Shown: positions 2,871 through 20,387 of the stretch, piece after piece
Layout of the letters: every line of letters begins with the position of its first letter
Numbering within the stretch: position 1 is the stretch's first letter
IMG/VR virus record: IMGVR_UViG_3300046517_001221
Coordinates: 1-26,494 of that record
Reading direction: 5' to 3' (one strand)
Length of the DNA stretch: 26,494 nt
From: a virus
The notes under the pieces: model-generated
What the model was told of the DNA's origin: nothing
Database searches by the model: none
What the model saw: only the letters and a program-made list of their open reading frames with translations
Program-made: the position numbers and the translations under genes

Positions 2871-3079
2871 ATACAGTTTATTACCTGGACCTGCAGAGCG
2901 TCGCACAGTCGTTGTCGCTCTCGACGGCGACTGTGAAACGGTTAGTCGCCGCCGGAGATCTACCGAAGCCTCGCGCCCTGACGGGTAAGCGAGTCGGCTG
3001 GCTCGCTCGCGAGATTGAGGCGTGGGCTGAAGCGCGCCCAGCCTCAAGCGTCCTGCCGCCGCCCAGCAAGGCGGCATAA
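2867..3079 (+). CDS. AlpA/excisionase-like MerR-type helix-turn-helix protein
   Basis: A 70-residue product. The start at 2867 is chosen over the in-frame ATG at 2843 because it follows GGAGGGAGGAAAGACC directly and overlaps the upstream stop. The pattern is that of the AlpA/Xis winged-helix family: YLDLQSVAQSLSLSTATVKRLVAAG (helix-turn-helix), then LPKPRALTGKRVGWLAREIEAWAEAR (wing and last helix). Known relatives are excisionases or activators of integrase genes. It lies tail-to-tail with the integrase gene and the two coding regions overlap by 36 bases. A role as directionality factor (Xis) or regulator of integration is inferred from family and position. Confidence 0.82.
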   Translation: MNTVYYLDLQSVAQSLSLSTATVKRLVAAGDLPKPRALTGKRVGWLAREIEAWAEARPASSVLPPPSKAA

Positions 3080-4312
3080 CTCGACGTCCAGTTTCGTCAG
3101 CCATACGCGGCGCTCATTGTCGTAGCGGTGCCGGTTGTACACTCCGGCCACCCCGCCCAACACGTGTCCGATGATCGCCTCGGCGACCTCATGCGGGCAT
3201 CCCAGTCTAGCTAGCATCGTTCGGACAGTCCGACGCAAGTCGTGGCAGGCCCAATGCGTCACCGTCAACTTCGGCGTGTGGTATGGGTTCTTGACGTTGC
3301 CGTAGGGCTGGCAACGGTAAATCATCTCCTGGATCGTTTTCTGAATCGTATGTGATTCGGCCCGCTTCGCCGGAAACAGGTAGCCCGAGCCATGCTGCGT
3401 CTTGCGGCGTTCGACAATTTCGAGCGCTCTTCCGACCAAAGGCACGCGGTGATCGTTCGCGCTTTCTACGTTGGCATTCTTAGTCTTGGCTTTGGGAATT
3501 GTCCACCAGACGCCATCGCGCTCTTTCGTGATTTCGGAACCCTCAATCGCCATAATCTCGGCGCCGCGCGTGCCGGTCCACAGGTAGAGCGAGATCGCGT
3601 CCTGCAGTAGTTGCGGAGAGTGCGGGAGCCAAACAAGAAGTTCTGCCAATTCGTCGTCGCTCAGCACCCGCTTTTCTTTCGTGCGTTCGCCGGCGCGGAG
3701 GCGGCCAGTTGTCTTGATGCGTCCCTGCATAATCTGGCGCCACCAGTTTGGCGTGGAACTGGCTAACTTGTCGGCGTCCATAGCGAAATCCCAGGCAGCG
3801 CCAAGTTCGCTCCGGAGCCGCAGAGCCATTGTCGGGGATTCGCTCATGCCGCTTATCAGTGCGTAGGCCTGCTGGCGGGTAATCGAGTCTGGAGCGAGAT
3901 CGGCGATGGGTTTGATGCCTCGCCGAATGAGGCGCATGGCGTTCGCGCTGGCTGTAGGCCCGCGGTGCCGTTCGATGTGCCCCGCAATATAGTCCTCGCA
4001 TAGAGCACGGACGTTGTATGGCGGCTTGACCTCAGATTCGCCCCGTCTTTTCCTACGCTTTTCGGCGGAAATATCTACGCCGGAGCTGCGCGTAGTTCGT
4101 GCTGCTTCCCACGCTGCGATAGCGGAGGCGTAGGTCATCGCAGGCCATTCGCCAAGCTTTGTCTGTTTCATGCGCCCGTCAATGGGCGACTTGTAGCGGT
4201 ATGTCCAGCTTCGTTTGGCCGTCGTAGCCTCGATTCGGAGGCCTGGGAAGCCGTCGATATTGACGTGCGTTCCGGGCGCCATGAGCTTTATTTTGCGGGC
4301 GTCAAAGGCCAT
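3044..4312 (-). CDS. int: Tyrosine recombinase integrase (P4-type, DUF4102 arm-binding domain)
   Basis: A 422-residue site-specific recombinase. The N-terminal ~90 residues match the DUF4102 arm-binding domain (GFPGLRIEA, SWTYRYKSPIDGRMKQTKLGEWP), and about 100-195 form the core-binding helical domain. The catalytic part holds R249 in LWTGTRGAE, H357/R360 in HDLRR, H383 in IGHVLGG and the nucleophile Y392 in VYNRH. The H383-Y392 spacing of nine is as in lambda Int. All key residues are present, so it should be active. The leader has no Shine-Dalgarno sequence, hinting at weak translation. Upstream lie a candidate promoter and GCGTAGG boxes. The gene is antisense to read-through from the early operon. 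Confidence 0.95.
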   Translation of the reverse strand: MAFDARKIKLMAPGTHVNIDGFPGLRIEATTAKRSWTYRYKSPIDGRMKQTKLGEWPAMTYASAIAAWEAARTTRSSGVDISAEKRRKRRGESEVKPPYNVRALCEDYIAGHIERHRGPTASANAMRLIRRGIKPIADLAPDSITRQQAYALISGMSESPTMALRLRSELGAAWDFAMDADKLASSTPNWWRQIMQGRIKTTGRLRAGERTKEKRVLSDDELAELLVWLPHSPQLLQDAISLYLWTGTRGAEIMAIEGSEITKERDGVWWTIPKAKTKNANVESANDHRVPLVGRALEIVERRKTQHGSGYLFPAKRAESHTIQKTIQEMIYRCQPYGNVKNPYHTPKLTVTHWACHDLRRTVRTMLARLGCPHEVAEAIIGHVLGGVAGVYNRHRYDNERRVWLTKLDVELCRLAGRRQDA

Positions 4313-5156: not shown

Positions 5157-5173
5157 GAAGCTAGAATGGTCCG

Positions 5174-5386
5174 ATGGGCCTCTTCAACGAACAAGGTACG
5201 GATCGCCACTGCATCGGCTGCGAACACTTCACGGAATGGCGCGCGGGCGGTTCAGTCATCCTTTGCATGCACGAAGGCAGGCCGTATGTGCAGGCGATGC
5301 CGGATCGCGGGTGCGTGCACTGGGTTCGCGCGATCGGCGCCGACGACGAAGGCCCGATTCATGCTGGTCCGCGAACGAGGAGGTGA
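5174..5386 (+). CDS. Small Cys-rich, probably metal-binding protein
   Basis: A 70-residue product starting with ATG at 5174, 17 bases after the nuclease stop. It holds CIGCEHF (Cys 14 and 17), ILCMHEG (Cys 31) and RGCVHW (Cys 47), a CxxC-H...C-H...C-H pattern that would suit one zinc site. It is a familiar type of small phage protein but has no assigned role that I know. It sits between the nuclease and ligase genes in the same direction, so it may share their transcript. Confidence 0.65.
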   Translation: MGLFNEQGTDRHCIGCEHFTEWRAGGSVILCMHEGRPYVQAMPDRGCVHWVRAIGADDEGPIHAGPRTRR

Positions 5387-5390
5387 CGCC

Positions 5391-5579
5391 ATGTTCGAGT
5401 ACCGCAACCCTGAAGCGATTCTGGAAGTCGTCCTGCCCGACCGGACCAAGCGGAACGAGCACGGGCATACCCTTGACGAGGACTTTGCCCATCTGTGTGA
5501 CGTGACCGGCTGCCCGAAGGATGATGCATGGGCCAAGCTGGCGCTCGCGTGGGCCTGGACGTCTCGCTACCGTGATTGA
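5391..5579 (+). CDS. Small acidic hypothetical phage protein
   Basis: The start at 5391 is chosen because GAGGAGGTGA, a near-perfect ribosome-binding site, lies directly upstream. Longer readings in the same frame start inside the preceding gene. The 62-residue product is acidic (HTLDEDFAHLCDVTGCPKDDAWAKL) with a Trp-rich C-terminus (LAWAWTSRYRD). Its last eight bases overlap the GTG start of the ligase gene, implying coupled translation. Function unknown. Confidence 0.65.
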   Translation: MFEYRNPEAILEVVLPDRTKRNEHGHTLDEDFAHLCDVTGCPKDDAWAKLALAWAWTSRYRD

Positions 5580-6201
5580 CGCCTCGGATTTGATGCTGGC
5601 GACTCTGCACCCGCGACCATTCTCCGATCCTGACTGGCTGTTTGAACTCAAGTACGACGGCTTCCGCTGCCTGGTCGTGAAGGAAGGCGAGCAGGTGAAA
5701 CTTTTGAGCCGCAACGGCAACATGTTCAACGGATCTTTTCCTGAGGTCGCGCAGGCGGTCGAAAATGTGCCCGGCGACTTCGTGTGGGACGCCGAGTTGA
5801 CGGTCGACGATGACACCGGGCGATCCGACTTCGAGAGGCTCCGACAGCGCGCGGTCACGAAGACGCCGAAGAATGTCCGCGCCGCGGCGAAGTCTGATCC
5901 GGCCCGGCTCTATGTATTCGATGCGCTATCGATTGACGGCGCCGACATTCGCTCCCTGCCTCTCACCGAGCGCAAACTCCATCTTCGCAAATCGTTCGAC
6001 AATTCGAATATGCTGATCTACGCGAGCGGGATTGAGGACGAAGGAAAGCTTGTCTTTGAGCACGTCAAAGAACTTGGCCTTGAAGGGATGATCGCCAAGC
6101 GGATGGACTCAACGTATCAGCGCGGAAGATCGAGGGATTGGCTTAAGATCAAGTACCAAGGGTATGGGCGGCCGGCGGCTTTGGGCTGGGGCAGGAAGTG
6201 A
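5572..6201 (+). CDS. Minimal ATP-dependent DNA ligase (adenylation domain only)
   Basis: The start is taken as GTG at 5572, giving a 209-residue protein that begins MIDASDLMLATL. Earlier in-frame starts fall within another gene. Nucleotidyltransferase motifs are in order: motif I ELKYDGFR with adenylated Lys27, motif III WDAELTV (Glu75), motif IIIa LYVFDALSIDG (113-123), motif IV EGMIAKR (171-177) and motif V DWLKIK (189-194). The protein ends about 15 residues later, so the usual OB-fold domain and motif VI are missing. Family knowledge says the enzyme seals nicks through a ligase-AMP intermediate. Without the OB domain, activity may need a partner or be limited to adenylation. It resembles the LigD-type ligase domain. 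Confidence 0.88.
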   Translation: MIDASDLMLATLHPRPFSDPDWLFELKYDGFRCLVVKEGEQVKLLSRNGNMFNGSFPEVAQAVENVPGDFVWDAELTVDDDTGRSDFERLRQRAVTKTPKNVRAAAKSDPARLYVFDALSIDGADIRSLPLTERKLHLRKSFDNSNMLIYASGIEDEGKLVFEHVKELGLEGMIAKRMDSTYQRGRSRDWLKIKYQGYGRPAALGWGRK

Positions 6202-6218
6202 CCACTCATGGAGGAAGT

Positions 6219-6512
6219 ATGACGCACGACGAACTTCACCAGATGCTTACCGAGCAGCTTCCGACGATGCCGCCCGGCACTTCCGCCGACATCACGGACT
6301 TCGCCATAGCCTACTGGGACGGGCACAAGGTCGTGTATGCGTTTCTGCGCGATGAGGGCTGCGGACGGGTCGAAGAAGAGTTCGACTTCACCGAGCACGA
6401 GTTCGAGCAGTGGGCCGATGCCTTGGCGGACTGGAAGAAAGAGCCGAAGTTTTCGGTGCGACCGGAGATTCTGGAGTGGCTTAAGGATGCGCCGCCGTAT
6501 GAGGCGGGATGA
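6219..6512 (+). CDS. Acidic hypothetical phage protein
   Basis: The start is placed at ATG 6219, four bases after GGAGG. An alternative GTG at 6198 overlaps the ligase stop as GTGA and would add seven residues. The 97-residue product is acidic and rich in Trp and Glu (GHKVVYAFLRDEGCGRVEEEFDF, then HEFEQWADALADWKKEPKF), suggesting a compact alpha/beta domain. I do not recognise the family. Same direction as the ligase gene, so likely the same transcript. Confidence 0.6.
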   Translation: MTHDELHQMLTEQLPTMPPGTSADITDFAIAYWDGHKVVYAFLRDEGCGRVEEEFDFTEHEFEQWADALADWKKEPKFSVRPEILEWLKDAPPYEAG

Positions 6513-6545
6513 TTTGATGTGCGCTTAGGCACGGGAGGCGGAGGG

Positions 6546-6818
6546 ATGGATGAACCAACGTTGCAACAGGTGATCGACGGCTTTCGCTATGGTCCGCTGC
6601 TGGGCGGGATAGATGATCGCGCCAAGGGCATTGCGGCCTACCTTTCGCGCGGAAATACGTTGGTTGCCGTGGAGCGCATCGAGGGCACAGTTGCACACTT
6701 TGCCCAGCGGACCATGATCGAAGATCCGCTGTTTCATCTAAGCGGTGGCATGGGTGACGCGTATCGCTTTGAGGACAGCAGGTTTGAGATTGATATGGCG
6801 CCGCAGAACGCGGCCTAA
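6546..6818 (+). CDS. Small hypothetical phage protein
   Basis: ATG at 6546 follows GGGAGGCGGAGGG, which decides this start over a GTG at 6519. The 90-residue product mixes helix and strand (LQQVIDGFRYGPLLGGIDDRAKGIAAYLSRG; FRYGPLLGG is distinctive) and ends in an acidic segment. No function recognised. It is the last + strand gene before the orientation switch and is followed by an inverted repeat that probably ends its transcript. Confidence 0.6.
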   Translation: MDEPTLQQVIDGFRYGPLLGGIDDRAKGIAAYLSRGNTLVAVERIEGTVAHFAQRTMIEDPLFHLSGGMGDAYRFEDSRFEIDMAPQNAA

Positions 6819-6827
6819 AGAGGGGTG

Positions 6828-6857
6828 CGTCCGAAGCGTGTAGCGTTGCTTCGGACG
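6828..6857. terminator. Hairpin between convergent operons
   Basis: CGTCCGAAGC (6828-6837) and GCTTCGGACG (6848-6857) form a perfect 10-base stem with a 10-base loop. It lies between the convergent genes ending at 6818 (+) and 6867 (-). No clear T-run follows on either strand, so it may act as a weak or factor-dependent terminator, or protect transcript 3' ends. Confidence 0.55.
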
Positions 6858-9686: not shown

Positions 9687-9785
9687 CCGTTCCAGAGGTA
9701 GCGCACCGCGCGACCCGAACAACCCGATAGGACGATCCAATGAAAATCAGCTTTCGCACGCGCCTTGACCGCGCACCCAGAAGAC

Positions 9786-10079
9786 ATGCCAATCCAATTC
9801 AACGAACCATCGACAGAAGACCTGGCGGAGCTCAAGCGCCGTCGCAATGCGACCGGGAAGGAGATGGCCGAGGCGTTCTGGCTGGGAAGCGATCAGCAAT
9901 GGCGCAAATATACGGGCGGCAAGGAACCTCGAAAGATGGGACCACACGTTGCGTTCGTGGGAGCGGCTCACATGGCATTGACGGAAGAAGAGTTCAACCG
10001 TGTGCTGCAGTTCATGGAGACGTTCGGCGCACACGTGAAGCAGGTTCCCGCTGGCGAGCAGGATTCGTCGCAGCCCTGA
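9786..10079 (+). CDS. Small putative DNA-binding regulator of the cargo cassette
   Basis: ATG at 9786 is used; a TTG at 9765 would add seven residues. The 97-residue protein starts MPIQFNEPSTEDLAELKRRR. Its central part (GKEMAEAFWLGSDQQWRKYTGG, then HVAFVGAAHMALTEEEF) has the look of a compact helix-turn-helix domain of the XRE type, where the first helices read as 'add a helix that is skipped unless a site is present'. DNA binding is inferred. It is the first gene behind the promoter at 9657 and could control it. Its 3' half overlaps the out-of-frame beginning of the next gene. Confidence 0.6.
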   Translation: MPIQFNEPSTEDLAELKRRRNATGKEMAEAFWLGSDQQWRKYTGGKEPRKMGPHVAFVGAAHMALTEEEFNRVLQFMETFGAHVKQVPAGEQDSSQP

Positions 10080-10834
10080 GCGTTTGCCTGGCTGCCTGTG
10101 GCGGCGGAGAGAAACCGGCTGACACCGCAGTTGCAAAGCCGATCATTCCGTCGACTGCTTTGCCAGCCTCGGCAGCATCTGGGGCGCCCGCGTCGTGGCC
10201 AACATCTACGCCGATCATCCATATCGATGTCTATGGCGACGACGCGGCGATGGGTCTTGCATCGTATGGCTTCGGCATTCCGGTCATCGTTAAACCAGCT
10301 TCGGCCAGCCTGCAAGATTCGCTGCAGAGGGAGTTCAACGATACCGGCATAACGGTCGCCAACCATGCGACCGGCGGGACGTCAGCGAGTCTGATGAACC
10401 TGCTCGACGGCATGGATGGCGGCGGCGCTCCGTTTGCTCAACGATTGGCATCGACGCAATCTACGATCGTCGTGATTAGTTACGGCCTGAACGAGCAGTA
10501 CGGCGGCGAAACAGTTTCCGATTTCTCGGGCTACCTTGCACAAGCCATCCAGACCGTGCGGGCTGCCGGCAGAAGACCAGTTCTTGAGACTCCGTCGCCA
10601 ACGTGCGACAGCGATCATCCGTTCACGGCAAGTTACGCCGCGGCGATCAAGGCGGCGGGAGTGACCTACGATGTGCCGGTGGTCGATAACCACGCTGCGA
10701 TTTCTGCTCTGGCGGATTGGGGTTCGCACATGGATGCGACATGCATATTGCCGGACGAGACATTGCAGACGCTCAAGGCTCAGCAGGAGTTGGCAGTCAT
10801 CGGCCCTATCGTTAAGGCTGAGTTCGGCGGATAG
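9899..10834 (+). CDS. SGNH/GDSL hydrolase-like lipoprotein (start uncertain)
   Basis: The recognisable protein begins with a lipoprotein signal ending LSVCLAAC (Cys codon at 10097), a low-complexity Ala/Pro/Ser linker, then an SGNH fold: block I VYGDDAAMG, block II NHATGGTS, block III SYGLNEQYGG and a late block WGSHMDATCILPDE. In the usual block I the second D is the catalytic Ser (GDS), so the nucleophile seems lost. Only ATGs at 9740 and 9899 are in frame ahead of the signal. No normal start lies close to it, and both would run through the regulator gene in another frame. A -1 frameshift from that gene, a non-standard start or a damaged start are possible. It would be anchored in the envelope. 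Confidence 0.65.
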   Translation: MAQIYGRQGTSKDGTTRCVRGSGSHGIDGRRVQPCAAVHGDVRRTREAGSRWRAGFVAALSVCLAACGGGEKPADTAVAKPIIPSTALPASAASGAPASWPTSTPIIHIDVYGDDAAMGLASYGFGIPVIVKPASASLQDSLQREFNDTGITVANHATGGTSASLMNLLDGMDGGGAPFAQRLASTQSTIVVISYGLNEQYGGETVSDFSGYLAQAIQTVRAAGRRPVLETPSPTCDSDHPFTASYAAAIKAAGVTYDVPVVDNHAAISALADWGSHMDATCILPDETLQTLKAQQELAVIGPIVKAEFGG

Positions 10835-10867
10835 ACGCCTGCGCTAGGCAAGCAAATCGCAAGAGCT

Positions 10868-10889
10868 GACGGATTCGGACGAATCCGTC
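10868..10889. terminator. Short hairpin between the SGNH-like and DUF2142 genes
   Basis: GACGGATTC (10868-10876), loop GGAC, and GAATCCGTC (10881-10889) form a perfect nine-base stem. The sequence after it (TCTCTCGATT) is only moderately T-rich. It could be a partial terminator or RNA-stabilising element within the cargo cassette. Confidence 0.4.
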
Positions 10890-10935
10890 TCTCGATTGCG
10901 CTATGATGCGCCCGAACAATTCAGGAATAAAGGCA

Positions 10936-12273
10936 ATGAATTCGCTGCGTCAATGGACAATTGCGTTTTTTTCCATCGTCATCATTGGCAGTTTTCTATC
11001 GGCAATCATACCGCCGATGCAGTCGCCAGATGAAAACGACCATATCAAGCGCGCATATCTGCTTTCTGTGCTATCGCAAACCGTAACAGAGCCGGGGCGC
11101 TCGACCGGAGGTTATTTCGACGACGCGTTGCAACAGTACCAGGTGCTGAACTTTCAGGCGCTTTCTACCAAGCCTAATGCCCGGTTTGATGCGAAAACGG
11201 CAGAGGCCGGTGCAGCCATAAAATGGAGCGGCGCTCGGAGTTACGTCGACATGGCCGGTGCTGCGCCATATTTCCCGCTAGGCTACCTCCCGCAAGCTGT
11301 AGGACTGCGGATTGGCGAATCATTGCACTTGGGTGTGGGCGCATCATACCGGCTTGCACGCGCGACAACTTTGATTGCTGTTGCCGTTATCATTGCTTAC
11401 GCATTCACGGTCTTCCCGCCGAATGCGTTGGTAATTTGCCTCCTAGCGCTGCCAATGACGATGTTCCAGTTATCGAGCGCGTCGGCTGACGGTATGTCGT
11501 TCGCCTGGACTGTGTTAGCAGCAAGCCTATTCCGCCGTGGCTTGGATCGAGAGCAGCCGTTTCCGCTTCTGTGGTCCTTGCTGCTGATCGTTGCGCCGTT
11601 CATGATTGCCACGAGTCGGCCGCAACTGATGGCGATCCTGATACTGGCACCAGTGGTTTTCTTCGTCCGAAAAGACCGCCGTGCGCTGGCTGCTTCTGTC
11701 ATCGCGGCGTTGCTCGCTGTGGGGTGGGTGATGTATGGAGCATCACACACCGTCGATCTGCGGTGGCCGCGCTCGATTACGACCGGTCAGGCCGTCTCGT
11801 TCTACATGCATCATCCCGTCGAACTGATAGAAGTCATTTGGCGAACGCTGTCGAACCCGGCAGTCATCGATTCGTACTGGCGTCAGTTCGTCGGCGTCCT
11901 TGGTTGGCTCGATCGGCCCATGCCGCCCGTTACCTACAAATTCGCGGGTGTTGGCTTGCTAATTGCATTGGTGATCTCCTGCTCCCGCGGGGTGGGGGCG
12001 CTTGCCCGGACGGTGCCGTTAATGGTCGCCGCGGCCGCGGTAATGCTTACCCTCGTCGCGCTGCTTGTCACTTGGACGGATCTTCACGCCCAACTTATCA
12101 TCGGTGTGCAAGGTCGTTATTTCACCGCTCCGGCCATCCTCGCTGCTTACGCCCTAAGTGATGCAGAACCTATGAAGCGGCGATCATCGGTGACCATGAT
12201 CGTTTGCGGCGCTTTTCTCGCATTCTCAATGTCGATGACTGTGTCGACGCTGATCTGGAAATACTATTTGTAG
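10936..12273 (+). CDS. DUF2142 polytopic membrane protein (GT-C glycosyltransferase-like)
   Basis: ATG at 10936 is chosen (AGGA ten bases upstream); upstream ATGs at 10903/10906 lack a site. The 445-residue protein has about ten membrane segments. After the first span it carries PPMQSPDENDHIKRAY, the acidic loop (PDE at 31-33, His36) typical of DUF2142, a group related to GT-C glycosyltransferases. By analogy it would use a lipid-linked sugar on the periplasmic side, for example to decorate O-antigen. The donor and acceptor cannot be told. Next to an acyltransferase and an SGNH-like lipoprotein, a role in lysogenic conversion of the host surface is likely. Confidence 0.8.
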   Translation: MNSLRQWTIAFFSIVIIGSFLSAIIPPMQSPDENDHIKRAYLLSVLSQTVTEPGRSTGGYFDDALQQYQVLNFQALSTKPNARFDAKTAEAGAAIKWSGARSYVDMAGAAPYFPLGYLPQAVGLRIGESLHLGVGASYRLARATTLIAVAVIIAYAFTVFPPNALVICLLALPMTMFQLSSASADGMSFAWTVLAASLFRRGLDREQPFPLLWSLLLIVAPFMIATSRPQLMAILILAPVVFFVRKDRRALAASVIAALLAVGWVMYGASHTVDLRWPRSITTGQAVSFYMHHPVELIEVIWRTLSNPAVIDSYWRQFVGVLGWLDRPMPPVTYKFAGVGLLIALVISCSRGVGALARTVPLMVAAAAVMLTLVALLVTWTDLHAQLIIGVQGRYFTAPAILAAYALSDAEPMKRRSSVTMIVCGAFLAFSMSMTVSTLIWKYYL

Positions 12274-12326
12274 ATCCCAGAATTCGTTAAGGCTGCGATT
12301 TTTTAGACCCAAAGAAGGCGAACGCG

Positions 12327-13535
12327 GTGCCTGATATATCCATTTTTTCGGTATGGCCCATGATGGCCATTGTCGGCCTGGTTGTGGTCGCGCTTTCCGG
12401 GCGATTCCTCCGGTTTCTGGACGTCAGTCCGACTGTATTTGCGCACCGACTAGATTCTATCGACGGCCTGCGCGGGATCCTTGCAACAGCCGTTGCATTC
12501 CATCATTTCGTGCTGCATGGATATGGCGCGAAGTTTGGAGTGGCTGCACCTTCCCATTTTTATATGTCTCTTGGGCCCGCAGCCGTAGCTATATTCTTCA
12601 TGATTACCGGCTACCTGTTCTGGAGTCGCCTTCTTGCTAAAGCCGATTCCGTGAACTGGGCGGAGTTATATGTCAACCGTTTCTTCAGGATCTATCCACT
12701 GTATCTTTTCCTGATTGCGTCGTACTTCGCAGTGGTTTTGTGCCGCGTCCACTTTGAGATCGACCAACCGTTCAAGCAAACTGTCTTTCAAATTGGCCAA
12801 TGGCTCGCACTCGGGGTCGTCAAGAATCCAACGCCTTTTTTGAACATGGATGCTGCGATGTCTGTAGTGGGACCTGTGTGGAGCTTGCGTTATGAGTGGC
12901 TGTTCTACGCAAGCTTACCGATATTGTCTATATTTGCTCGCCTCGGACGTCCGGTCGCATTGACGGCATCAGCACTGTTTCTTGTTCTGGCAGTCGACGG
13001 TCTGATCGCGGAGCCGTTCAGGTCGTTTCTTGCCGAATTTCTGTGCGGGATGCTCGCATCATCAATCATGCGCACGCGACCGGCCCTCAAAGGAGATGGA
13101 GCAATACGGTCCATCATCGCTTGCGCCTTGATCGTCGCCGCGTTTCGTGTCCCAGACATCATCTACTCGCCGGTTGGCACGTTGCTGCTCGGTGGATTTT
13201 TCATGATGATAGTTTCCGGAACGTCAATCTTCGGAGTGCTTCAAACGCGGGGCGCGCATCGCTTGGGTAACATGAGCTACAGCGTGTATCTGCTTCACAG
13301 CCTCGTCATTACGATGGTGATGACCCGTCCCGCTATTGTTTCCTATGCTCTCGGAAACAATTCTGCATTCTGGATCACCTGCGCCTTCATGTATGTCACC
13401 ACCGTCGCAATGTCGGTTGCAACGTTCTCGGCGATTGAACGGGTCGGTATCTCAATCGGAAAAGCCGCGATTACGCGGCTCAACCGGGCATCAGACGTTC
13501 ATCCAGGTACTGGAGTCACGACGGGGCAGCCGTGA
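12327..13535 (+). CDS. Acyltransferase-3 (OafA-like) membrane protein
   Basis: GTG at 12327 follows AAGAAGG. The 402-residue protein shows acyltransferase-3 signatures: LDSIDGLRGILA (42-53) with His59-His60 shortly after, FFMITGYLFWSR (90-101), and RFFRIYPLYLF (118-128), plus about ten membrane spans. Known relatives transfer acetyl or other acyl groups to LPS, O-antigen or exopolysaccharide. There is no fused SGNH domain; the SGNH-like lipoprotein upstream may take its place. Sampled lines here are poorer in GC (about 42-48%) than the early phage genes (about 60%), suggesting separate origin. Its stop is one base from the tail-spike gene's stop on the other strand. Confidence 0.88.
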   Translation: MPDISIFSVWPMMAIVGLVVVALSGRFLRFLDVSPTVFAHRLDSIDGLRGILATAVAFHHFVLHGYGAKFGVAAPSHFYMSLGPAAVAIFFMITGYLFWSRLLAKADSVNWAELYVNRFFRIYPLYLFLIASYFAVVLCRVHFEIDQPFKQTVFQIGQWLALGVVKNPTPFLNMDAAMSVVGPVWSLRYEWLFYASLPILSIFARLGRPVALTASALFLVLAVDGLIAEPFRSFLAEFLCGMLASSIMRTRPALKGDGAIRSIIACALIVAAFRVPDIIYSPVGTLLLGGFFMMIVSGTSIFGVLQTRGAHRLGNMSYSVYLLHSLVITMVMTRPAIVSYALGNNSAFWITCAFMYVTTVAMSVATFSAIERVGISIGKAAITRLNRASDVHPGTGVTTGQP

Positions 13536-13536
13536 C

Positions 13537-15282
13537 TTATTGAGAGCCGCCGCCGAGCGTATTGCCTGTACCGCTGTTCGAAATGTTGGTCGTGTTAGCG
13601 AAGTAGACATTCGATTGCACATTGACAGACTTGGAGCCCGACCCGAGGAGGATGCCCGTTGTCATTTCCTGAATCGCATTAGCCGTAATCACACCGGCGC
13701 TTGACGCCCAGGTGTCGATGTATATGCCGCGAGTACCAGTCGGAGATGCAACGGCAGGGTTGAACGTGTTACCGATGATGCTGAATGCGCTGTAGTTCTG
13801 CAACGAAATCCCGTTGCTGTTGTTCTGGACGAGAAAGAAATTGTTGGCGATCATGATGACGCCAACGTTCGACTGGGTAAGGATGCCGTTGTTGTAGGTG
13901 TTGAACTGACTATTCGTCACGCTCAACTGGTCGAGGCCTGCCTGACCAGTCGGGACGACGATCCCGTTGGTGTCGCCAGTGAAGTTGCTCTGGTTGACAG
14001 TGACTCCTTGCACATAGGCCGCGTAGTAAAGGCCAATGCCAAGATAGTTGAAGGTACAGCCCTGAAAGTTGTACACGACGCCCAAAGCGGTCGACGTGCC
14101 GTTCAGGATGACTCCGTACGATGCGGTTGAGGGTCCGATCGTAGTGAGGTTCGTGAAGTTGATGTTCGATACGCTCGCGACATTTACACCATTCGACCAC
14201 CCGTCAGTAACAACGTAGCCGTCAGCGCCGCGGGTCGTCACATTTGTGATATCCGAGAGAGCGGAGTTGGCCGGATTGGCGATGGTGCTCTGCTGCTGCG
14301 CCAGGTTGATTGCAACACCGGTCGGCGTTGATGCGGTTGTGGTGACTGATAGATCTCTGATGTGGATACCGGAAAACGGACCGTTTGCTGCGATGGATAT
14401 CCCGAATGACGTGGCGTTAAACTTCAGAATCGACGAGTCAGCCGCGACGCCTTTAATGGTTATCGAATTGGGGTTGGTGTTCGGGAACGTATATCCGATG
14501 CTTGATGCGAAGTAATACGTGCCTTGCGGAAAAAATACACACACGTTGCCCGTCGATTGCGCGGCCACCGCATTCGTCCATGCGGCATTGTTCGATACGA
14601 CTCCGCCGTTATTGCCGCCGTAGTCGAGGATGGAAGGGCAAGGAGCGTGAGCAGCGACAAACCCCGTGCTCGCCGCGAGCGTACTGTTGTTGCCGGCAGA
14701 TTGCGTCCCGACAATCGCATTGGAAAGCGTGGGGGACGTTGCCAGAACGGGACTACCACTGCCCGTCACTGCATTGGCGAGCGCCGCCGCCACGCCGGTT
14801 CCAAGACCGGATATGCCGGTCGACACGGGAAGTCCCGTGGCGTTCGTCAGTGTAGCCGCGGAAGGCGTACCCAAGTTGGGGGTGACTAGCGTAGGACTGG
14901 TCGCCAGGACTGCCGAACCAGATCCAGTCGCTGTTGACGAACCCGTTCCACCTTGGGAGACAGACAGCGGCGTCGTCAGGCCGGAAAGCGAGGTAATGTT
15001 ACTGTTAGCTCCTGCGGTAGCGCCACTGGAACTGTTCAGAAGGGTACCGCTGGTCGGCAACGTGATATTGGTGGGAGCTGTCGTATTGAGCACAAGCGGG
15101 TTACCGCCAGTGGTCGAAAAGCTTCCTCCAAGCGTGATCGTCCCGGAGTTCGCGACGCCGGTTCCACCGTTGGCCGGCGTCAACGGATTTTGAAGCGTAA
15201 TACTGTTGAACGTGGGTGAAGGGTAAGTCTGGGCGAGCGCCGCCAGCGGCGCAAACAGCGCCGCGATGATGATTTTCTTCAT
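13537..15282 (-). CDS. Tail spike/fibre with beta-helix (pectate-lyase-like) domain and signal peptide
   Basis: A 581-residue protein. Residues 1-18 (MKKIIIAALFAPLAALAQ) look like a Sec signal peptide, unusual for a virion protein. Residues about 20-210 are Gly/Ser/Thr/Ala-rich fibre repeats (GGTGVANSG, SGSAVLATSPTL, PNLGTPSAATLTNATGLP). From about 216 the ILDYGGNNGG...NNAAWTNAVAA...VFFPQGTYYF segment starts a right-handed beta-helix of the pectate-lyase type that runs to about 560. Such spikes bind and often cut surface polysaccharide; no catalytic residues could be assigned. It is the last gene of the tail operon and lies next to surface-modifying cargo genes. Confidence 0.8.
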   Translation of the reverse strand: MKKIIIAALFAPLAALAQTYPSPTFNSITLQNPLTPANGGTGVANSGTITLGGSFSTTGGNPLVLNTTAPTNITLPTSGTLLNSSSGATAGANSNITSLSGLTTPLSVSQGGTGSSTATGSGSAVLATSPTLVTPNLGTPSAATLTNATGLPVSTGISGLGTGVAAALANAVTGSGSPVLATSPTLSNAIVGTQSAGNNSTLAASTGFVAAHAPCPSILDYGGNNGGVVSNNAAWTNAVAAQSTGNVCVFFPQGTYYFASSIGYTFPNTNPNSITIKGVAADSSILKFNATSFGISIAANGPFSGIHIRDLSVTTTASTPTGVAINLAQQQSTIANPANSALSDITNVTTRGADGYVVTDGWSNGVNVASVSNINFTNLTTIGPSTASYGVILNGTSTALGVVYNFQGCTFNYLGIGLYYAAYVQGVTVNQSNFTGDTNGIVVPTGQAGLDQLSVTNSQFNTYNNGILTQSNVGVIMIANNFFLVQNNSNGISLQNYSAFSIIGNTFNPAVASPTGTRGIYIDTWASSAGVITANAIQEMTTGILLGSGSKSVNVQSNVYFANTTNISNSGTGNTLGGGSQ

Positions 15283-15292
15283 TGTTTTCGAA

Positions 15293-15508
15293 TCAGGAGA
15301 TTGAAACTACGCCGCCGTTGTTCCAGACGACGCCAGGGGCTGAGGGACGAGTTGTCGGTAGGCCGGAAGCGAGAGCGGTAAGGGTGATGACCGTAAGAAG
15401 GGAAGAAAGAGGCATCGTGCATAGGGCGGTTTGCCCGTTCTGTGTTTGCCTGATGGTCACCGTCTCGCTACCGGTAAGTGGCTGAGGTAATCCGAACACC
15501 TGACTCAT
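15293..15508 (-). CDS. Small tail-associated protein with C-terminal WNNGG motif
   Basis: A 71-residue product starting at ATG 15508, directly after the stop of the upstream fibre gene. The N-terminal part is polar (TGSETVTIRQTQNGQTA), the middle hydrophobic (LSSLLTVITLTALASGLP). The end reads APGVVWNNGGVVSIS, nearly the same as the C-terminus of the gpI-like protein (GQLWNNGGVISIA). The shared motif suggests a small module that joins tail-fibre components, but its role is not known. Confidence 0.65.
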   Translation of the reverse strand: MSQVFGLPQPLTGSETVTIRQTQNGQTALCTMPLSSLLTVITLTALASGLPTTRPSAPGVVWNNGGVVSIS

Positions 15509-16231
15509 TTAATATCCGATCGCCATGAAGTTGACCTGAGCGAGGTTGACCGGAGAGCCGTTGTTCGCAACTACAGCCACCAGGTTCAATCTCGTTGATA
15601 AATTGGAGAAAGAGGCTTGATTGTTGGTAACCGTTGTGCCGTTGTTCACGTAGTTTGCGACTCCAGACAGCAATGCATTCGGAAACGGCAAATCGAGCGT
15701 CAGAGTGGCAATCCCGGAGGCGTTAGTCACAGCCTGCCCCCACTGAAAGACCATCGGAACGAGAGCGCCCGCGACGGAGCACGGAATTACAAGGTGACCT
15801 GTTCCAGTAGTGTCCGCAGAGAACTGACCAAGATTCACCGCTTGTCCAGCGGAGGAAGCAGCCGCTACAGCCACAGGATCAGTGAACGTGTTTGGCCCCG
15901 CCCAGGTATTGGCCGCCGCAAGTTGTCCAAAGGACGACTGCTGTCCCGCAGTAGGAGGGCTGTAGGCGTAGTCTCCTGTTAGCCACGAAAGCGCTGCCGT
16001 GCCTTCCTGACCGCGCAATACTGTTAATGTCGATCCGGTCCTCGCGGTCGCATACACCACTTCGTAGTTCTGGCGCGTAGCGACGTCATTCAGCGTGATT
16101 ACCAGTACCTGGCCGGCAGGAATCGATGCCGGCAGGTTCGCGGTATTTGAAAGCGTTATCGAGGTGGCGCTGGACGAGACCGGTCCTGCCAACGTCGTGT
16201 TGACGTTGTTCGCGAACGTAAAAATTGTCAT
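15509..16231 (-). CDS. Tail fibre with gp53-like receptor-binding C-terminus
   Basis: The start is taken at ATG 16231, just after the upstream stop (16237); a longer frame would run into the neighbouring gene. The 240-residue protein begins MTIFTFANNVNTTLAGPVSSSATS, then a beta-rich shaft with QNYEVVYATARTGSTLTVLRG and ANTWAGPNTFTD. The C-terminal part (VFQWGQ, GIATLTLDLPFPNALL, VNFMAIGY) follows the gp53-like fibre tip pattern, a W-G and Phe-Pro repeat fold ending in an aliphatic-Gly-Tyr motif. It likely contacts the host receptor. Confidence 0.82.
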   Translation of the reverse strand: MTIFTFANNVNTTLAGPVSSSATSITLSNTANLPASIPAGQVLVITLNDVATRQNYEVVYATARTGSTLTVLRGQEGTAALSWLTGDYAYSPPTAGQQSSFGQLAAANTWAGPNTFTDPVAVAAASSAGQAVNLGQFSADTTGTGHLVIPCSVAGALVPMVFQWGQAVTNASGIATLTLDLPFPNALLSGVANYVNNGTTVTNNQASFSNLSTRLNLVAVVANNGSPVNLAQVNFMAIGY

Positions 16232-16236
16232 TGTCG

Positions 16237-17136
16237 TCAGGCGATCGAGATGACGCCGCCGTTGTTCCAGAGTTGACCGGTTGAACCCGGATTGATAAGA
16301 GGCAGATTTCCGCCGCCAAGGGCCAGCAGCCCCGAAGCGGTAAGTGTTCCGAAATAGACTGGCGGCGCCAGGGGATCGGGGGTGATGCCCGGAATCACAG
16401 AGACGGTGCCGCCGTTGTACCAAACGGAACCCGCTGCTAACCCTGTGGGGCTAGTCGGATAATTGAGCGGAGCAGTCATCCACAGAACACCGCCATCGTT
16501 AAAGAACCCGATATTGACGAATGCGAACGTGTACTGAAACGGAAACGCTAGAACACCGTTGTTCAGGCACTCCTGCAGGATCGTAAAGTTCGAATCCTCA
16601 AACGACGTAATGGTGAATACGTTCCCAGATACGGTTATCGATGGAGGATTGTCCAGTACCGTGTAGTCGGATCCATTCGCGCCGTTGAGGAACCTGTTGA
16701 CCCGGTTCTTGAGCCAGCCCATATTGAAAACCTGCCCGTCACCGCGATACAGGTTCCACGTCATCACACGTTTGTAGATGTCGTCCGAAGCGATCTCTGC
16801 GGTTCCAGACGATGAGTGGCTGAGGCCGTTGTATGGGACTGTGTTATAGGGGGCGGTGTTGTATCCAGCTATCGTTGTGGATGTTTGCGTCGACAGAACC
16901 GGGCGGGGAATTCCATAGACACCGTTACCTATCCAGTCCAACAGCGGGCCCGTTATGTTTGGCGACGTATAGAGGCCAAGCGGTGTGTCGTTGAACCAGT
17001 CGACATATCCTTGCGAAATCGAGTTGAACGCATCGACGAAAGCCTGAAGGTTCTCGTCATCGCTGTATTGAAGGTATAGGTAGCTCGGGATCGTTTTCTG
17101 AAGCGGCAAAGTCGAGAATGATTCGATATTGCCCAT
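16237..17136 (-). CDS. gpI-like (DUF2612) baseplate/tail-fibre attachment protein
   Basis: A 299-residue protein whose first ~200 residues have the DUF2612 look: LPSYLYLQYSDDENLQAFVDAFN, YVDWFNDTPLGLY, GPLLDWIGNGVYGIPRP, and IYKRVMTWNLYRGDGQ. In P2-like phages the corresponding gpI sits between baseplate J and the fibre, as here. The C-terminal ~90 residues contain three Gly/Asn repeats (FFNDGG 211-216, VWYNGG 238-243, LWNNGG 289-294). The ATG follows the J gene by two bases with an AAGGA site. It probably links the baseplate to the fibres. Confidence 0.8.
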   Translation of the reverse strand: MGNIESFSTLPLQKTIPSYLYLQYSDDENLQAFVDAFNSISQGYVDWFNDTPLGLYTSPNITGPLLDWIGNGVYGIPRPVLSTQTSTTIAGYNTAPYNTVPYNGLSHSSSGTAEIASDDIYKRVMTWNLYRGDGQVFNMGWLKNRVNRFLNGANGSDYTVLDNPPSITVSGNVFTITSFEDSNFTILQECLNNGVLAFPFQYTFAFVNIGFFNDGGVLWMTAPLNYPTSPTGLAAGSVWYNGGTVSVIPGITPDPLAPPVYFGTLTASGLLALGGGNLPLINPGSTGQLWNNGGVISIA

Positions 17137-17138
17137 GG

Positions 17139-18554
17139 TTATCCTTGAGTTACCGTGATCGCAGTTGCACTCGCAGAGAAGTAGCCCTCAACATCTCCGG
17201 CAATAATGCTGGTGCCGGCTGCGGGGGACGCCGGAACACCGTTGATGGTCACTGCAAACTGCAATGTGGTTATGTTGGACGCGGCGATAACTGAAGAAAC
17301 CGCACTCTGAAACACCGCCGTCATCTCGAGTTCGTTGATCGGCTGCCCGACGTAGATCGAGTTGATGTATGACTGGAGCGCTGGAGCTGCCAACTGGTTG
17401 ACCGACGTTCCTGCCGTGAAGTTGGGCAGAGTCGTATTCCACGTCACCGCTACTGTCACAACTTGCTGCGGAGGATTGACGAAGGTTATCGAATACGTAT
17501 CGGGATTCTGGAACAGGGACACCGTCACATTTCGAGGATTCGGACTGAGCGTGGCACCACCGACATATGCACCAAATCCGCTGCCGTTAGTCGTCGTCGT
17601 GATCGTTGTTGGCGTGACCGAGGCGATCGTATAGGTGCCGTTGTATGCGCTTGGCGTAGCCCCCGCCACTGTAACCGTGCCGCCCGCGACGTATCCATGA
17701 TTCAGGTTGGTCGTGACGACGACCGGGTTGGCTGCGGTCATTGTCGTGATCGACAATTGCGATCCCTTTAGCAGTGCTATGTCGCCGGCACCCTGAAGAA
17801 TTGCGTTCGCAACGGCGTAGGCATCACCGCCTCCGCAGATGACCTGCCAACCGCCTGAAACTGCGTTAATCGAAACTAGTTGCTGTTGAACGCCCGTGAT
17901 TTTGTAAAGCAGAGTCTTAAGGTAAGCGGGCGTTCCAGTAGCTGCTACCAACCCTGCCTGTAACACCTGCGCGCGATAGTCCGGCACGCTCTGTGTAGTT
18001 GTTGCAGCAGTTCCGGCCTCCGGGTTCGTAACCGTGACTGCATAAGCGCTTGGAACCGACGTCACCAACTGATTAACGGTGTTGGCCGGAATAGCGAAGC
18101 TACCGCTAGTCGTCGCTACCGCAAAAAGGAGCGGGCTTAGTCCGTTGGCCTGGATGACACCACCATCCTGAAGTGCGTACTGATTGGTCCCGTCACCCAC
18201 GACGAAGCCTTTCTGGAACACGTATCCAGCGGGACCAGCGAACTGCACATACACACTGCCGTTTGCGCCCACTCCTGGAGCGATCCCGAATTGAGCGCCG
18301 AGTTGGGCCAGCACAAAAGCATTGGCACCATATGGACTGACGCTGTTGATCGCATCAACTCGCGCCTGATCGATCGCGACGAGCGCGCCGGTATCGGTGC
18401 CCGCGACATCGTCGATCAGAGAGCCGGGAAGGTTAGCCGTGTAGCCGGGAACCTGATTGGCAACATAATTGATCAGGGTGTCGTACAGCGTCGCCACGGG
18501 AGTCGCCTGCGGCCCTGCCGTCGTCATTATCAGTGGAATAGACGTTGTGCTCAT
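17139..18554 (-). CDS. Baseplate J-like wedge protein with inserted domain
   Basis: A 471-residue baseplate wedge protein. The N-terminal block (ANLPGSLIDDVAGTDTGALVAIDQARVD, then LAQLGAQFGIAPG) and the later block (NPRNVTVSLFQNPDTYSITFVNPPQQ; INSIYVGQPINELEMTAVF) are typical of the J/gp47 family. Between residues about 269 and 336 sits an extra beta-rich segment with NHGYVAGGTVTVAG and YNGTYTIASVTPTTIT, typical of an immunoglobulin-like or tail-surface module. It is part of the baseplate ring that triggers sheath contraction. Confidence 0.85.
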   Translation of the reverse strand: MSTTSIPLIMTTAGPQATPVATLYDTLINYVANQVPGYTANLPGSLIDDVAGTDTGALVAIDQARVDAINSVSPYGANAFVLAQLGAQFGIAPGVGANGSVYVQFAGPAGYVFQKGFVVGDGTNQYALQDGGVIQANGLSPLLFAVATTSGSFAIPANTVNQLVTSVPSAYAVTVTNPEAGTAATTTQSVPDYRAQVLQAGLVAATGTPAYLKTLLYKITGVQQQLVSINAVSGGWQVICGGGDAYAVANAILQGAGDIALLKGSQLSITTMTAANPVVVTTNLNHGYVAGGTVTVAGATPSAYNGTYTIASVTPTTITTTTNGSGFGAYVGGATLSPNPRNVTVSLFQNPDTYSITFVNPPQQVVTVAVTWNTTLPNFTAGTSVNQLAAPALQSYINSIYVGQPINELEMTAVFQSAVSSVIAASNITTLQFAVTINGVPASPAAGTSIIAGDVEGYFSASATAITVTQG

Positions 18555-18621
18555 GCGGCGTAGTGGTCAGTTCAGCAATGGAAGTTGCCGTCGCAGGGCG
18601 AGCGGCTTGGTATGCATGGTC

Positions 18622-19986
18622 TTAGCGGCGGCGTGCCTGAATGTTTCCGTACGCCGCCATCGTGCCTCCGGAGAACGTCACGGAGCCGGACAGATAAAGT
18701 GTCGTGGTTGCTGAAACATTGATCCGACCCATGCCGGTTTGTACGGCGGTCCCCTGACTGGCAGTGAAGGCAGTCGACATGAAGAACCACGGTTTCGCCG
18801 GATCAGAATCCGTTGGCATCGTCGCGGACGTTGTGCTAAGCCATGCGGAAATCAGGGCAATGGAGGTCACGCTGCTAGGCTTGGTAATAAATTGCCCCCA
18901 GATGTCCCAGTCGCCCGGCGTCAGAGTGATCGACGTGACGTTGGTCGATGTCTGGTTGGGGAAACTTACGGCCGAAGCTTGAAGGACGTTCGAGGAAATC
19001 AGTTCGCCAACACTGCCGGCCGTCACGTTGCTGCCAGTTGTGTTGCCTACGACGCCCGCGGGATACGCTGGCGTGATTGCGGACGTAGCTTGCAAGGTGG
19101 TGAACTTGCCGGCTGCCGCAGTGGTTGTGCCAATGGCGGGCGGAGAAGCAAGATATGCGCTAAATCCGGTTCCGCTGACCGTTCCACTCGATGAGAGATT
19201 GGTGAATGTGCCCGCGGCTGGCGCGGTGCCGCCGATCGCTGGAGGCGACGCGAGATACGTGCTGAAGCCAGTGCCGCTGACAGTACTGCTTGCCGACAGC
19301 GTGGTTGCGGCGACACTGCCCGCATACGACGATCCGGTGATTGTTGCCCCGCTGATTGCCGGGTTCGTACCGAACACCGCGGCGCCGCTGCCTGTTTCGT
19401 CCGACAACACGCCGGCCAGTTGTGCAGAGGTGGTGGATGCGAATTGCGCTAGTGTTCCGGTCGTCGTGGCGGAATTGGCGTAGCAGGTAAATCCCGTGCC
19501 GCTTGTGTACTGCAACGCACTGGTCGACGTCGAGCAACTCGGCATCGCGAACGCCGTGGGAGACGCGCTTGATGCCGTGACGTTCGCGAGTACCGTATTC
19601 GCCGCTTGTGACGCCAGCGAAGCGGGGGAGATTAAACCGGGAGCGGTGAACGTTCCAGTTACGGTCAGACCTGCAATTGTTGGAGCGGTGGCCAGGACCA
19701 CGCTTCCTGATCCGGTCGACGCGGTGGCGCCGGTGCCTCCCGATGCGACGGGAAGCGGTGACGTCAGCCCCGAGATTGTCCCGCCGGTTATGGCAGTACC
19801 CGACATCGTTCCACCGTTGATGGTGGCATTCGTAATCGAGCCGCCCGTGATCGCCGCAGCTGAATTGCTCGTCTTTGCGGCTAACGCGGCGTTAAGTTGA
19901 GACGCCGTCAGAATTTGACCGGGCGTAAACTGTGCGTTGGCCGTTGAACAAACAAACGCGAGCAGAAAGAGAGTGCGTCGAATCAT
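18622..19986 (-). CDS. Long tail fibre with N-terminal signal peptide and tandem repeats
   Basis: The start is ATG 19986, overlapping the upstream stop (ATGA). The 454-residue protein begins MIRRTLFLLAFVCSTANA, a typical Sec signal peptide, again unusual for a tail fibre. The body is Ala/Gly/Ser/Thr-rich with the TGSGSVVLATAPTI motif also present in the tail spike, and a 34-residue tandem repeat (TVSGTGFS at 235 and 269, each followed by YLASPPAIG). The C-terminal ~100 residues (TPGDWDIWGQFITKPSS, FFMSTAFTAS) are a globular, probably receptor-binding domain. The gene sits between gp25-like and J genes, an uncommon place for a fibre. Confidence 0.78.
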   Translation of the reverse strand: MIRRTLFLLAFVCSTANAQFTPGQILTASQLNAALAAKTSNSAAAITGGSITNATINGGTMSGTAITGGTISGLTSPLPVASGGTGATASTGSGSVVLATAPTIAGLTVTGTFTAPGLISPASLASQAANTVLANVTASSASPTAFAMPSCSTSTSALQYTSGTGFTCYANSATTTGTLAQFASTTSAQLAGVLSDETGSGAAVFGTNPAISGATITGSSYAGSVAATTLSASSTVSGTGFSTYLASPPAIGGTAPAAGTFTNLSSSGTVSGTGFSAYLASPPAIGTTTAAAGKFTTLQATSAITPAYPAGVVGNTTGSNVTAGSVGELISSNVLQASAVSFPNQTSTNVTSITLTPGDWDIWGQFITKPSSVTSIALISAWLSTTSATMPTDSDPAKPWFFMSTAFTASQGTAVQTGMGRINVSATTTLYLSGSVTFSGGTMAAYGNIQARRR

Positions 19987-20387
19987 GCCAGGGCCGATTG
20001 ATTGAGAATGAAAGTGCTGTCGAGTTGCGGAGCGTTGATCGATGAATCCACATACGGAGTCAGGATTGCGCCGCTGTGGCACACCGCACTGACGTTATAG
20101 ACGGGCGGAGACGAGCCCTGCACCCGGTTAATCGTGAGTGACGCGAAGTACTGCGAGAACTGCGTCTGCGTCTGCATAACGTAGTAATCAGGCAAGACCT
20201 GCGTCACGATCGTCTGGTATTGAGGGATACCGTAGTTCGCGTAGATCGGACTCTCGCCAAGATTCAGTTTCAGACATTGCGCGAGAGTAGTCAGATAAAC
20301 GTTGTCGTTGTATCCGTTCGCATCGGTCTCGACCACAACCCATGTTTTCGAACCGTCCTCGTTCAGGATTCGCCCATATGTGCGCAT
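19983..20387 (-). CDS. gp25-like baseplate wedge protein
   Basis: A 134-residue protein. The segment NVYLTTLAQCLKLNLGESPIYANYGIP, followed by a Leu/Gln-rich block ending PDYYVMQTQTQFSQYF and a beta-rich C-terminus, has the layout of the gp25/W wedge family: a N-terminal region followed by 'line-up' of the loop before a Y-G-I-P element. The assignment rests mainly on position, between spike and J in the baseplate cluster. Divergent from the + strand pair that starts at 20412 with 24 bases between. Confidence 0.6.
   Translation of the reverse strand: MRTYGRILNEDGSKTWVVVETDANGYNDNVYLTTLAQCLKLNLGESPIYANYGIPQYQTIVTQVLPDYYVMQTQTQFSQYFASLTINRVQGSSPPVYNVSAVCHSGAILTPYVDSSINAPQLDSTFILNQSALA

Follow-up and report, generated by a model that had tools for sequence, protein, structure and literature searches.

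The window, the whole stretch of 26,494 nucleotides analysed here, carries two tail-fibre-like genes on its minus strand, a spike (13537..15282) and a long fibre (18622..19986), both inside the tail operon with baseplate genes adjacent. Between them, on the same strand, lie a signal-less tail-fibre gene with a gp53-like C-terminus (MTIFTFANNV..., 15509..16240), which is a second receptor-binding protein candidate, a phrog_8212 protein gene (16237..17136) used as a neighbour anchor, and a gpJ-like baseplate wedge gene, BpJ (17139..18554; phrog_6, E=2.4e-22). Upstream of the fibre is a phrog_7986 protein gene (19983..20387, minus strand), labelled W25-like on position alone. The fibre gene is optional, the slot between the phrog_7986 and BpJ genes being occupied in 8 of 43 distinct loci. 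On the plus strand, a gene for an Acyl_transf_3 O-acyltransferase (12327..13535), likely involved in surface-glycan modification, adjoins the spike; this arrangement is also seen in phage QDWS and in loci L187 and L203. The phage is temperate, as it encodes an integrase (3044..4312, minus strand), and the named hosts of its relatives are mostly Burkholderiaceae. It is best explained as a temperate, contractile-tailed phage of Burkholderiaceae, going by those relatives. Its hosts are soil bacteria, and the two tail-fibre-like proteins bear genuine export signals; the system is also carried by prophages of the soil hosts Paraburkholderia dilworthii WSM3556 and Caballeronia glathei DSM 50014 (loci L215 and L216).

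The spike ORF (581 aa, ATG at 15282) begins MKKIIIAALFAPLAALA|QTYPSPTF. The first 17 residues, MKKIIIAALFAPLAALA (15232..15282, minus strand), form a signal peptide with a predicted cleavage site at ALA|QTYPSP, and the mature N-terminal module, QTYPSPTFNSITLQNPLTPANGGTG (15157..15231), is conserved from position +1, with 92% identity over 26 residues to QDWS. A fibre repeat at residues 98–132 (14887..14991) is followed by a right-handed beta-helix at residues about 214–578 (13549..14643), a high-confidence structure prediction. The domain match is a NosD-type beta-helix (E=4.9e-6) and the family match is tail fiber phrog_11393. Foldseek matches of the model include AlgE4 and the Dettilon and Sf6 tailspikes; against solved structures, only a repeat match to 7z47 (E=2.6e-6) and weak matches were obtained. 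The fold is like that of Sf6/P22-type and other beta-helix tailspikes, and a polysaccharide-type target is likely. Three cysteines follow the signal, and the CX16C pair described below is absent from this protein.

The long fibre begins MIRRTLFLLAFVCSTANA|QFTPGQ and is 454 aa long, counted from the ATG at 19986, which overlaps the stop of the upstream phrog_7986 gene. A longer mechanical ORF starting at a GTG at 20082 was judged wrong, since that start falls within the upstream gene and the ATG is the one retained in relatives. The 18-residue signal peptide (19933..19986, minus strand) has a predicted cleavage site at ANA|QFTPGQ and is followed by the mature N-terminal module QFTPGQILTASQLNAAL (19882..19932), a repeat common to the spike at residues 70–104 (19675..19779), a near-invariant (alignment A2) CX16C pair, C151 and C168 (19483..19536), and a C-terminal tip at residues 307–453 (18628..19068) that resembles the tip of fibre gp47 (PDB 8vbx, E=2.4e-8). 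Only this tip is well predicted in the structural model, which is poor elsewhere (mean pLDDT 57.6), so the beta-hairpin predicted around the cysteines with moderate confidence, for which Foldseek matches are weak, is no more than suggestive. The repeats of the two proteins align at 22 of 35 identical residues (E=1e-8), bearing out the sequence-only reading that they are shared. The fibre repeats and a receptor-binding C-terminal domain resembling known virion fibres are as expected of a tail fibre; unlike leaderless tail fibres assembled in the cytoplasm, both proteins carry a signal peptide.

That both proteins begin with Sec-type signal peptides had been proposed from the letters alone, and it holds: the ORF positions are correct and each start has a basic n-region, an uncharged hydrophobic core, alanine at -3 and -1 and glutamine at +1. 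Neither has a lipobox, which rules out lipoprotein signals and assigns both to the SPase I type. A Tat signal was rejected by judgement; the fibre has an RR pair but does not fit the Tat motif, and its core is short and strongly hydrophobic.

Signal peptides were called (SP+) by a rule of our own rather than by SignalP. Applied to the fetched loci without a 60-codon limit, the rule identifies a signal in 98 of 103 distinct N-terminal modules. Three of the other five are signal-like by eye and two, L202 and L212, lack a signal, start at about the predicted cleavage point and retain the following module. With a 60-codon limit, the rule fires on 89 of 100 module-bearing ORFs versus 68 of 1240 other distinct same-locus ORFs of at least 150 aa, a rate that rules out chance signals. 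When loci were retrieved by their neighbouring baseplate genes, 29 of 34 spike slots were SP+ (29/35 if L212, dropped by de-duplication, is included). A relative of BcepC6B gp19 is present in 25 of 299 whole genomes of one family (that of G001), an even draw from a larger group; in those genomes, 17 of the 19 ORFs matching the N-terminal part are SP+ by rule, one (L338) has a signal-like start without a start codon and one (L308) is cut off by the locus. Among the 30 ORFs listed by this search, seven without a called signal match only the C-terminal part of the query: three of them (L320, L326 and L329) seem genuinely to lack a signal, L319 has a signal-like start, the locus of L328 ends within the ORF, and L314 and L315 are ambiguous. 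The relative sets comprise the best 80 of 469 in one search and the best 80 of 211 in another.

Comparisons of these relatives provide evidence that, judged from sequence, the signals are kept by selection across a large set. Simulated neutral drift to the observed divergence left the rule satisfied in 204 of 1440 trials in one set and 426 of 3000 in another (14%), versus 98 of 103 observed, as expected under purifying selection. Mean pairwise identity is 0.47–0.52 in the signal helix versus 0.69–0.75 in the residues after the cleavage site. Only sequences that passed the rule entered the set used for the drift test, and the YPSPTF pattern required glutamine at +1; the residue counts at -3, -1 and +1 and the scarcity of acidic residues therefore follow in part from how the set was chosen, and only the identities and the drift figure do not depend on this choice.

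The CX16C pair is associated with the signals at the sequence level. It occurs in 59 of 83 SP+ fibres versus 2 of 57 nominally SP- fibres, and both exceptions (L044 and L019) are misclassified SP+ proteins on inspection. Even and odd cysteine numbers stand at 58:25 in mature SP+ fibres, 129:137 in same-locus controls and 15:29 in SP- fibres, with Fisher p-values of 7e-4 and 1e-4 that overstate independence because the rows are related. An independent interior scan found 61 distinct ORFs covering the cysteine region, of which 57 are SP+, two signal-like, two cut off and none signal-less; the loose 'SP-like' pattern also tagged six plainly non-signal N-termini in the non-cysteine group, and its label is relied on only for the two cysteine-bearing ORFs read by eye. 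A stricter CX16C motif gave 60 proteins with a signal and three nominally without (L021, L044 and L159), all three signal-like by eye. Counted by pattern, any CX16C occurs in 16 of 307 same-locus controls.

The sequence that follows the cleavage site varies with tail type. In fibre-anchored loci, YPSPTF modules occur with contractile-tail genes 23:1, PGQxLTA modules with contractile-tail genes 8:0, and PVQLLxP modules with podovirus genes 21:0, counts that exclude the 43 of 127 module instances lacking a tail-type marker. This link may arise from descent alone. The C-terminal domains are shared, and the tip and beta-helix are also found on signal-less fibres; a domain similar to the beta-helix of the window spike is present on the signal-less spikes L075 and L076 (among the best 80 of 469 relatives). 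One SP+ relative carries a T4 Gp34 trimerisation domain. The closest named counterparts are BcepC6B gp19 and Xanthomonas phage PBR31 gp35, which have a signal peptide, the module ATLNPIQLLNPAGSTSGQ, the CX16C pair and a similar C-terminal half, but differ in that their N-terminal module is of podovirus type. In the PBR31 paper, neither section 3.3 nor the hits of a term search mention gp35 or its signal.

Given the signals, the drift result, the cysteine association and the link to tail type, it is very likely that both proteins are exported, which was one of three readings offered earlier; the other two, a hydrophobic baseplate anchor and production in two forms, fare poorly, as set out below. 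A fuller scheme, to which we assign a probability of about 0.48, is that spike and fibre are Sec-exported receptor-binding proteins. They would be translated alongside the baseplate genes and moved into the periplasm, with cleavage after A-x-A, and in most relatives and the window fibre the CX16C disulfide would form in that oxidising compartment. When lysis mixes cytoplasm and periplasm, at that point or later, the mature N-terminal module (QTYPSPTF.. or QFTPGQILTA..) would dock on the tail, so that the mature proteins enter the virion. The scheme draws on the signals, the selection on them, the cysteine-pair association and the module–tail type link; a search for proteomics placing any SP+ member in a virion found none. 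In classical phages, fibres and tailspikes are able to attach to completed particles in a lysate, so the earlier argument that an exported protein is lost to assembly is not compelling.

The strongest alternative, which we consider unlikely, is that these are exported non-virion proteins of the periplasm or cell surface, made late or by the lysogen, that bind, mask or trim host polysaccharide so that progeny avoid sticking to debris or superinfecting phages are excluded. It accommodates the real signals, the polysaccharide-type beta-helix of the spike, the O-acyltransferase gene adjoining the spike in the window, QDWS, L187 and L203, and the optional fibre gene (8/43), and mere release at lysis needs no export signal. 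The window operon also encodes a separate signal-less fibre (15509–16240), and in BcepC6B and PBR31 the SP+ fibre is accompanied by a signal-less spike; the virion could thus do without the exported proteins. However, a free protein has no need of a mature N-terminal module that follows tail type, the C-terminal domains are of the virion-fibre type, the genes are embedded in tail operons, and the signal-less fibre module of L202 occupies the usual position of the gp53-like fibre gene.

It is improbable that the signals are mimics which do not lead to export in practice, with the hydrophobic helix packing into the baseplate or delaying folding. Export is read here from sequence, and tailed phages normally make their virion proteins without a leader. 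A packing helix should, however, conserve its sequence; here signal properties are kept while the helix varies, conservation is higher beyond the cleavage site, the CX16C pair accompanies the signal, and two natural variants drop the helix and retain the following module. Less probable again is export for folding only, in which disulfide formation and periplasmic chaperones replace a phage fibre chaperone, whatever the role after lysis. The CX16C pair and even cysteine numbers suit this explanation, but the pair is missing from 24 of 83 SP+ fibres and from the window spike, and disulfides are therefore not the sole reason for export. Least probable is that two forms are made, the full-length protein for export and another, started internally, that stays in the cytoplasm for the virion: some relatives have downstream in-frame ATG, GTG or TTG codons, but start codons at any one position reach at most 14/54 (YPSPTF), 9/25 (PGQxLTA) and 14/48 (PVQLLxP), no start beyond the cleavage site combines conservation with an SD-like motif ahead of it, and almost no internal start has such a motif. 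This is weak evidence, since in two of the three classes few genuine starts have one either (6/54 and 0/25).

Assembly of tailed phages is taught as cytoplasmic until lysis, and Sf6/P22-type tailspikes are leaderless and assembled in the cytoplasm, whereas the window spike has a cleavable Sec signal and a different N-terminal module. In filamentous phages, the receptor-binding virion protein pIII is Sec-exported, loses its signal and is disulfide-stabilised before joining the particle; pIII is, however, unrelated to the window proteins, and the filamentous particle is extruded through the membrane rather than released by lysis.

Host export pathways are used by other phage proteins, including Lom of lambda (PMC12309495), Spackle of T4 (PMC7677548), SAR endolysins and Rz1, but no tail fibre or spike is among these. 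The window proteins are not Lom-like lysogenic-conversion proteins, as they lack a lipobox and have a beta-helix and fibre repeats rather than an outer-membrane barrel. A search of the open-licence PMC literature found no published account or precedent of a signal-bearing tail fibre in tailed phages, and none is described in the available portions of PMC12309495, PMC3765740, PMC12923769, PMC10975493, PMC9144972, PMC3426561, PMC3517404, PMC3556154, PMC5567305, PMC3483164 or PMC7696170.

Our results suggest that in some tailed phages the receptor-binding proteins leave the cytoplasm rather than being assembled there. We tentatively propose, as a possible generalisation, a two-compartment assembly that crosses lineages, in which contractile and short-tailed phages, mainly of Burkholderiaceae, gain Sec-exported, cut and disulfide-bonded receptor-binding proteins only at lysis. 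If so, some phages would mature these proteins in a compartment other than the cytoplasm, which bears on fibre folding in the absence of phage chaperones, on the way in which such fibres are best expressed for study, and on whether infected cells expose receptor-binding proteins before lysis. In annotation, the protein is overlooked or mis-called, for example in QDWS, and BcepC6B gp19 and PBR31 gp35 are annotated only as tail fiber or putative structural protein.

The integrase gene at 3044–4312 marks the phage of this 26,494 bp IMG/VR virus record as temperate. Its tail operon runs on the minus strand and encodes, in order, a phrog_7986 protein (19983–20387), the fibre (18622–19986), a gpJ-like baseplate wedge (17139–18554), a phrog_8212 protein (16237–17136), a gp53-like fibre (15509–16240), a 71-residue ORF (15293–15508) and the spike (13537–15282). 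As the sequence-only reading had proposed, spike and fibre both begin with textbook Sec signals (MKKIIIAALFAPLAALA followed by QTYPSPTF, and MIRRTLFLLAFVCSTANA followed by QFTPGQ), and the fibre repeat said to be common to them is borne out by identity at 22 of 35 residues. The 71-residue ORF and the phrog_8212 protein have a common C-terminal motif (VWNNGGVVSIS and LWNNGGVISIA). Beside the operon, on the opposite strand (9740–13535, +), lie consecutive genes for a GDSL-type esterase, a DUF2142 membrane protein and an Acyl_transf_3 acyltransferase, a likely surface-glycan conversion cassette. Acyl_transf_3 genes also adjoin the spike in the related loci L187 (13824–14894), L203 (13327–14778) and L002, Shewanella phage QDWS (6003–7055); in locus L191 such a gene (11808–13001) occupies the spike's place.

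An in-house signal rule was applied to N-termini in loci taken from IMG/VR, from phage records and from genomes; it requires a positive n-region, a core free of charges whose mean hydropathy over 9 residues reaches 1.9 or more, a small residue at both −3 and −1, and no acidic residues past the first positions. Three mature modules (QTYPSPTF.., QF.PGQILTA.. and ATLNPVQLLNPAG..) occur on 103 distinct N-termini, 98 of which satisfy the rule; three more (loci L021, L039 and L159) are signal-like with a charged residue inside or ahead of the core, and two (L202 and L212) have no signal. These loci contain 1240 other distinct ORFs that are 150 residues or longer, of which 68 pass; several of the 68 encode additional fibre-like proteins that have a fourth module, QTFxVQNL. 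In loci retrieved via neighbour genes, and so not chosen by the spike or fibre themselves, a signal is present at the spike position in 29 of 34 distinct cases (29 of 35 including L212). Named hosts of these relatives are Paraburkholderia dilworthii, P. phenoliruptrix, P. phenazinium, Caballeronia glathei and C. calidae; three metagenome bins also contain them. A relative of phage BcepC6B gp19 is found in 25 of 299 genomes drawn from the family of P. dilworthii (genome G001, locus L215), and 17 of the 19 ORFs matching its N-terminal part pass the rule; of the other two, one begins like a signal but has no start codon, and one is cut by the locus end. By these counts, the predicted signal peptide is a family trait of these spikes and fibres. 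Outside the main families, loci L091, L060 and L127 each contain 2–4 adjacent fibre-like or large ORFs that are signal-bearing by the rule.

In the fibres, a cysteine pair is associated with the signal. Mature signal-bearing fibres, dereplicated (n=83), have even versus odd cysteine numbers at 58:25, against 129:137 in same-locus controls (Fisher p=7e-4) and 15:29 in signal-less fibres (p=1e-4), p-values that are too small because the rows are related. A CX16C pair, typically PSC-X16-C with exact spacing, is present in 59 of the 83 versus 2 of 57 nominally signal-less fibres, and both of the latter (L019 and L044) prove signal-bearing on inspection. Motif-like instances in signal-bearing proteins number 57, with both cysteines in 49, one in 1 and neither in 7, these last being by eye mostly chance pattern matches. 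In an independent scan whose query was the interior module of the window fibre alone, the best 80 of 211 relatives include 61 distinct ORFs spanning the cysteine region: 57 signal-bearing, 2 signal-like, 2 cut off and none with a signal-less N-terminus. The adjoining cysteine-free repeat occurs on both kinds (of 13 ORFs, 3 signal-bearing, 7 signal-less on inspection, 3 cut off). In the window fibre the pair (C151 and C168) comprises the sole cysteines after the signal, and the simplest reading is that it would form a disulfide in the periplasm. The signal-less L212 protein has no cysteines, and that of L202 has ten but no CX16C. The window spike lacks CX16C and has three cysteines after its signal, which is an argument against extending the disulfide reading to the spike.

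The favoured model, with a probability of slightly under one half, is that spike and fibre would be exported via the signal, the signal cleaved and, in the fibre, the disulfide formed, and that the mature proteins would dock at lysis. Several indirect points suggest a virion role. First, the fibre's C-terminal tip resembles the gp47 fibre of solved structure 8vbx (E=2.4e-8), and this tip is also present on fibres that lack a signal, in genomes from the same host family. Second, the spike beta-helix region shares 62–65% identity with the C-terminal part of spikes (L075 and L076) that lack a signal and have another N-terminus, and one relative contains the T4 Gp34 trimerisation domain. Third, and most telling, the mature N-terminal module goes with the tail type: in loci found via fibres, contractile-tail genes accompany YPSPTF 23:1 and PGQxLTA 8:0, and podovirus genes accompany PVQLLxP 21:0 and QTFxVQNL 2:0, counts that leave out 43 of 127 module instances without an assignable type. 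An N-terminal module that follows tail type with a freely swapped C-terminus would fit the usual docking-domain pattern, although common descent could yield the same. Counting against a virion role, the window phage, BcepC6B and Xanthomonas phage PBR31 also encode a signal-less fibre or spike, and the window fibre is optional, with a gene inserted at its position in 8 of 43 distinct loci. The main rival, in which the proteins are exported for a non-virion role on glycans of the host itself, is made attractive by the acyltransferase adjoining the spike in some phages; it is a serious but rather unlikely explanation.

What is conserved in the signals is their character as signals, not a fixed sequence, and an unexported N-terminal helix is improbable. 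Mean pairwise identity of the signals is 0.47 for PGQxLTA (n=24) and 0.52 for YPSPTF (n=50), against 0.75 and 0.69 over the first 17 mature residues, the opposite of the pattern expected of a structural helix. Random nucleotide drift to equal divergence keeps the signal rule in 14% of trials versus 98 of 103 real N-termini. The signal-less variants start 2 (L212, MSAYPSPTFQN..) and 6 (L202, MTVESNFVSGQVLTAAQLN..) residues ahead of the module pattern match, so the module is a unit of its own to which the signal is added. Proteins need no signal to be released at lysis, and export must thus matter before lysis or for folding; that it serves folding alone is quite improbable. Production in two protein forms is the least credible, and all three readings are less likely than either docking at lysis or the non-virion role.

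The nearest mechanistic parallel is pIII of filamentous phages, and a search of open-licence PMC papers for a signal-bearing tail fibre found none; what would be new here is a route of biogenesis differing from that of known tail fibres and spikes. BcepC6B gp19 and PBR31 gp35 belong to the same type of protein as the window's signal-bearing pair; their annotations are tail fiber and putative structural protein, and their genes have that of a signal-less spike on one side and the holin gene on the other. Neither gp35 nor its signal is mentioned in section 3.3 of the PBR31 paper or among term matches in its text (PMC10975493), which does note the signal peptide of esterase gp40, a neighbour of gp35. 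Section 3.3 reports a signal peptide for the SGNH esterase at 6188–6835 (−) of PBR31 (L224), near the exported fibre (PMC10975493); the region around this fibre may have more than one exported gene product. In passages on BcepC6B from a neural-network study, gp18 and gp16 are the only previously identified structural proteins named.

The signal-bearing spike of QDWS (OK094664) is a single open frame of 687 residues at 3947–6010 (+), annotated as an antisense ORF (UEP18737) and a truncated C-terminal part (UEP18758). OK094664 and OP650936 give identical matches and are both 47,902 bp long; they are credited to Shewanella baltica and a Tenericutes bacterium, respectively. Both have tail genes similar to the ones in Burkholderiaceae prophages, and the host labels may be wrong.
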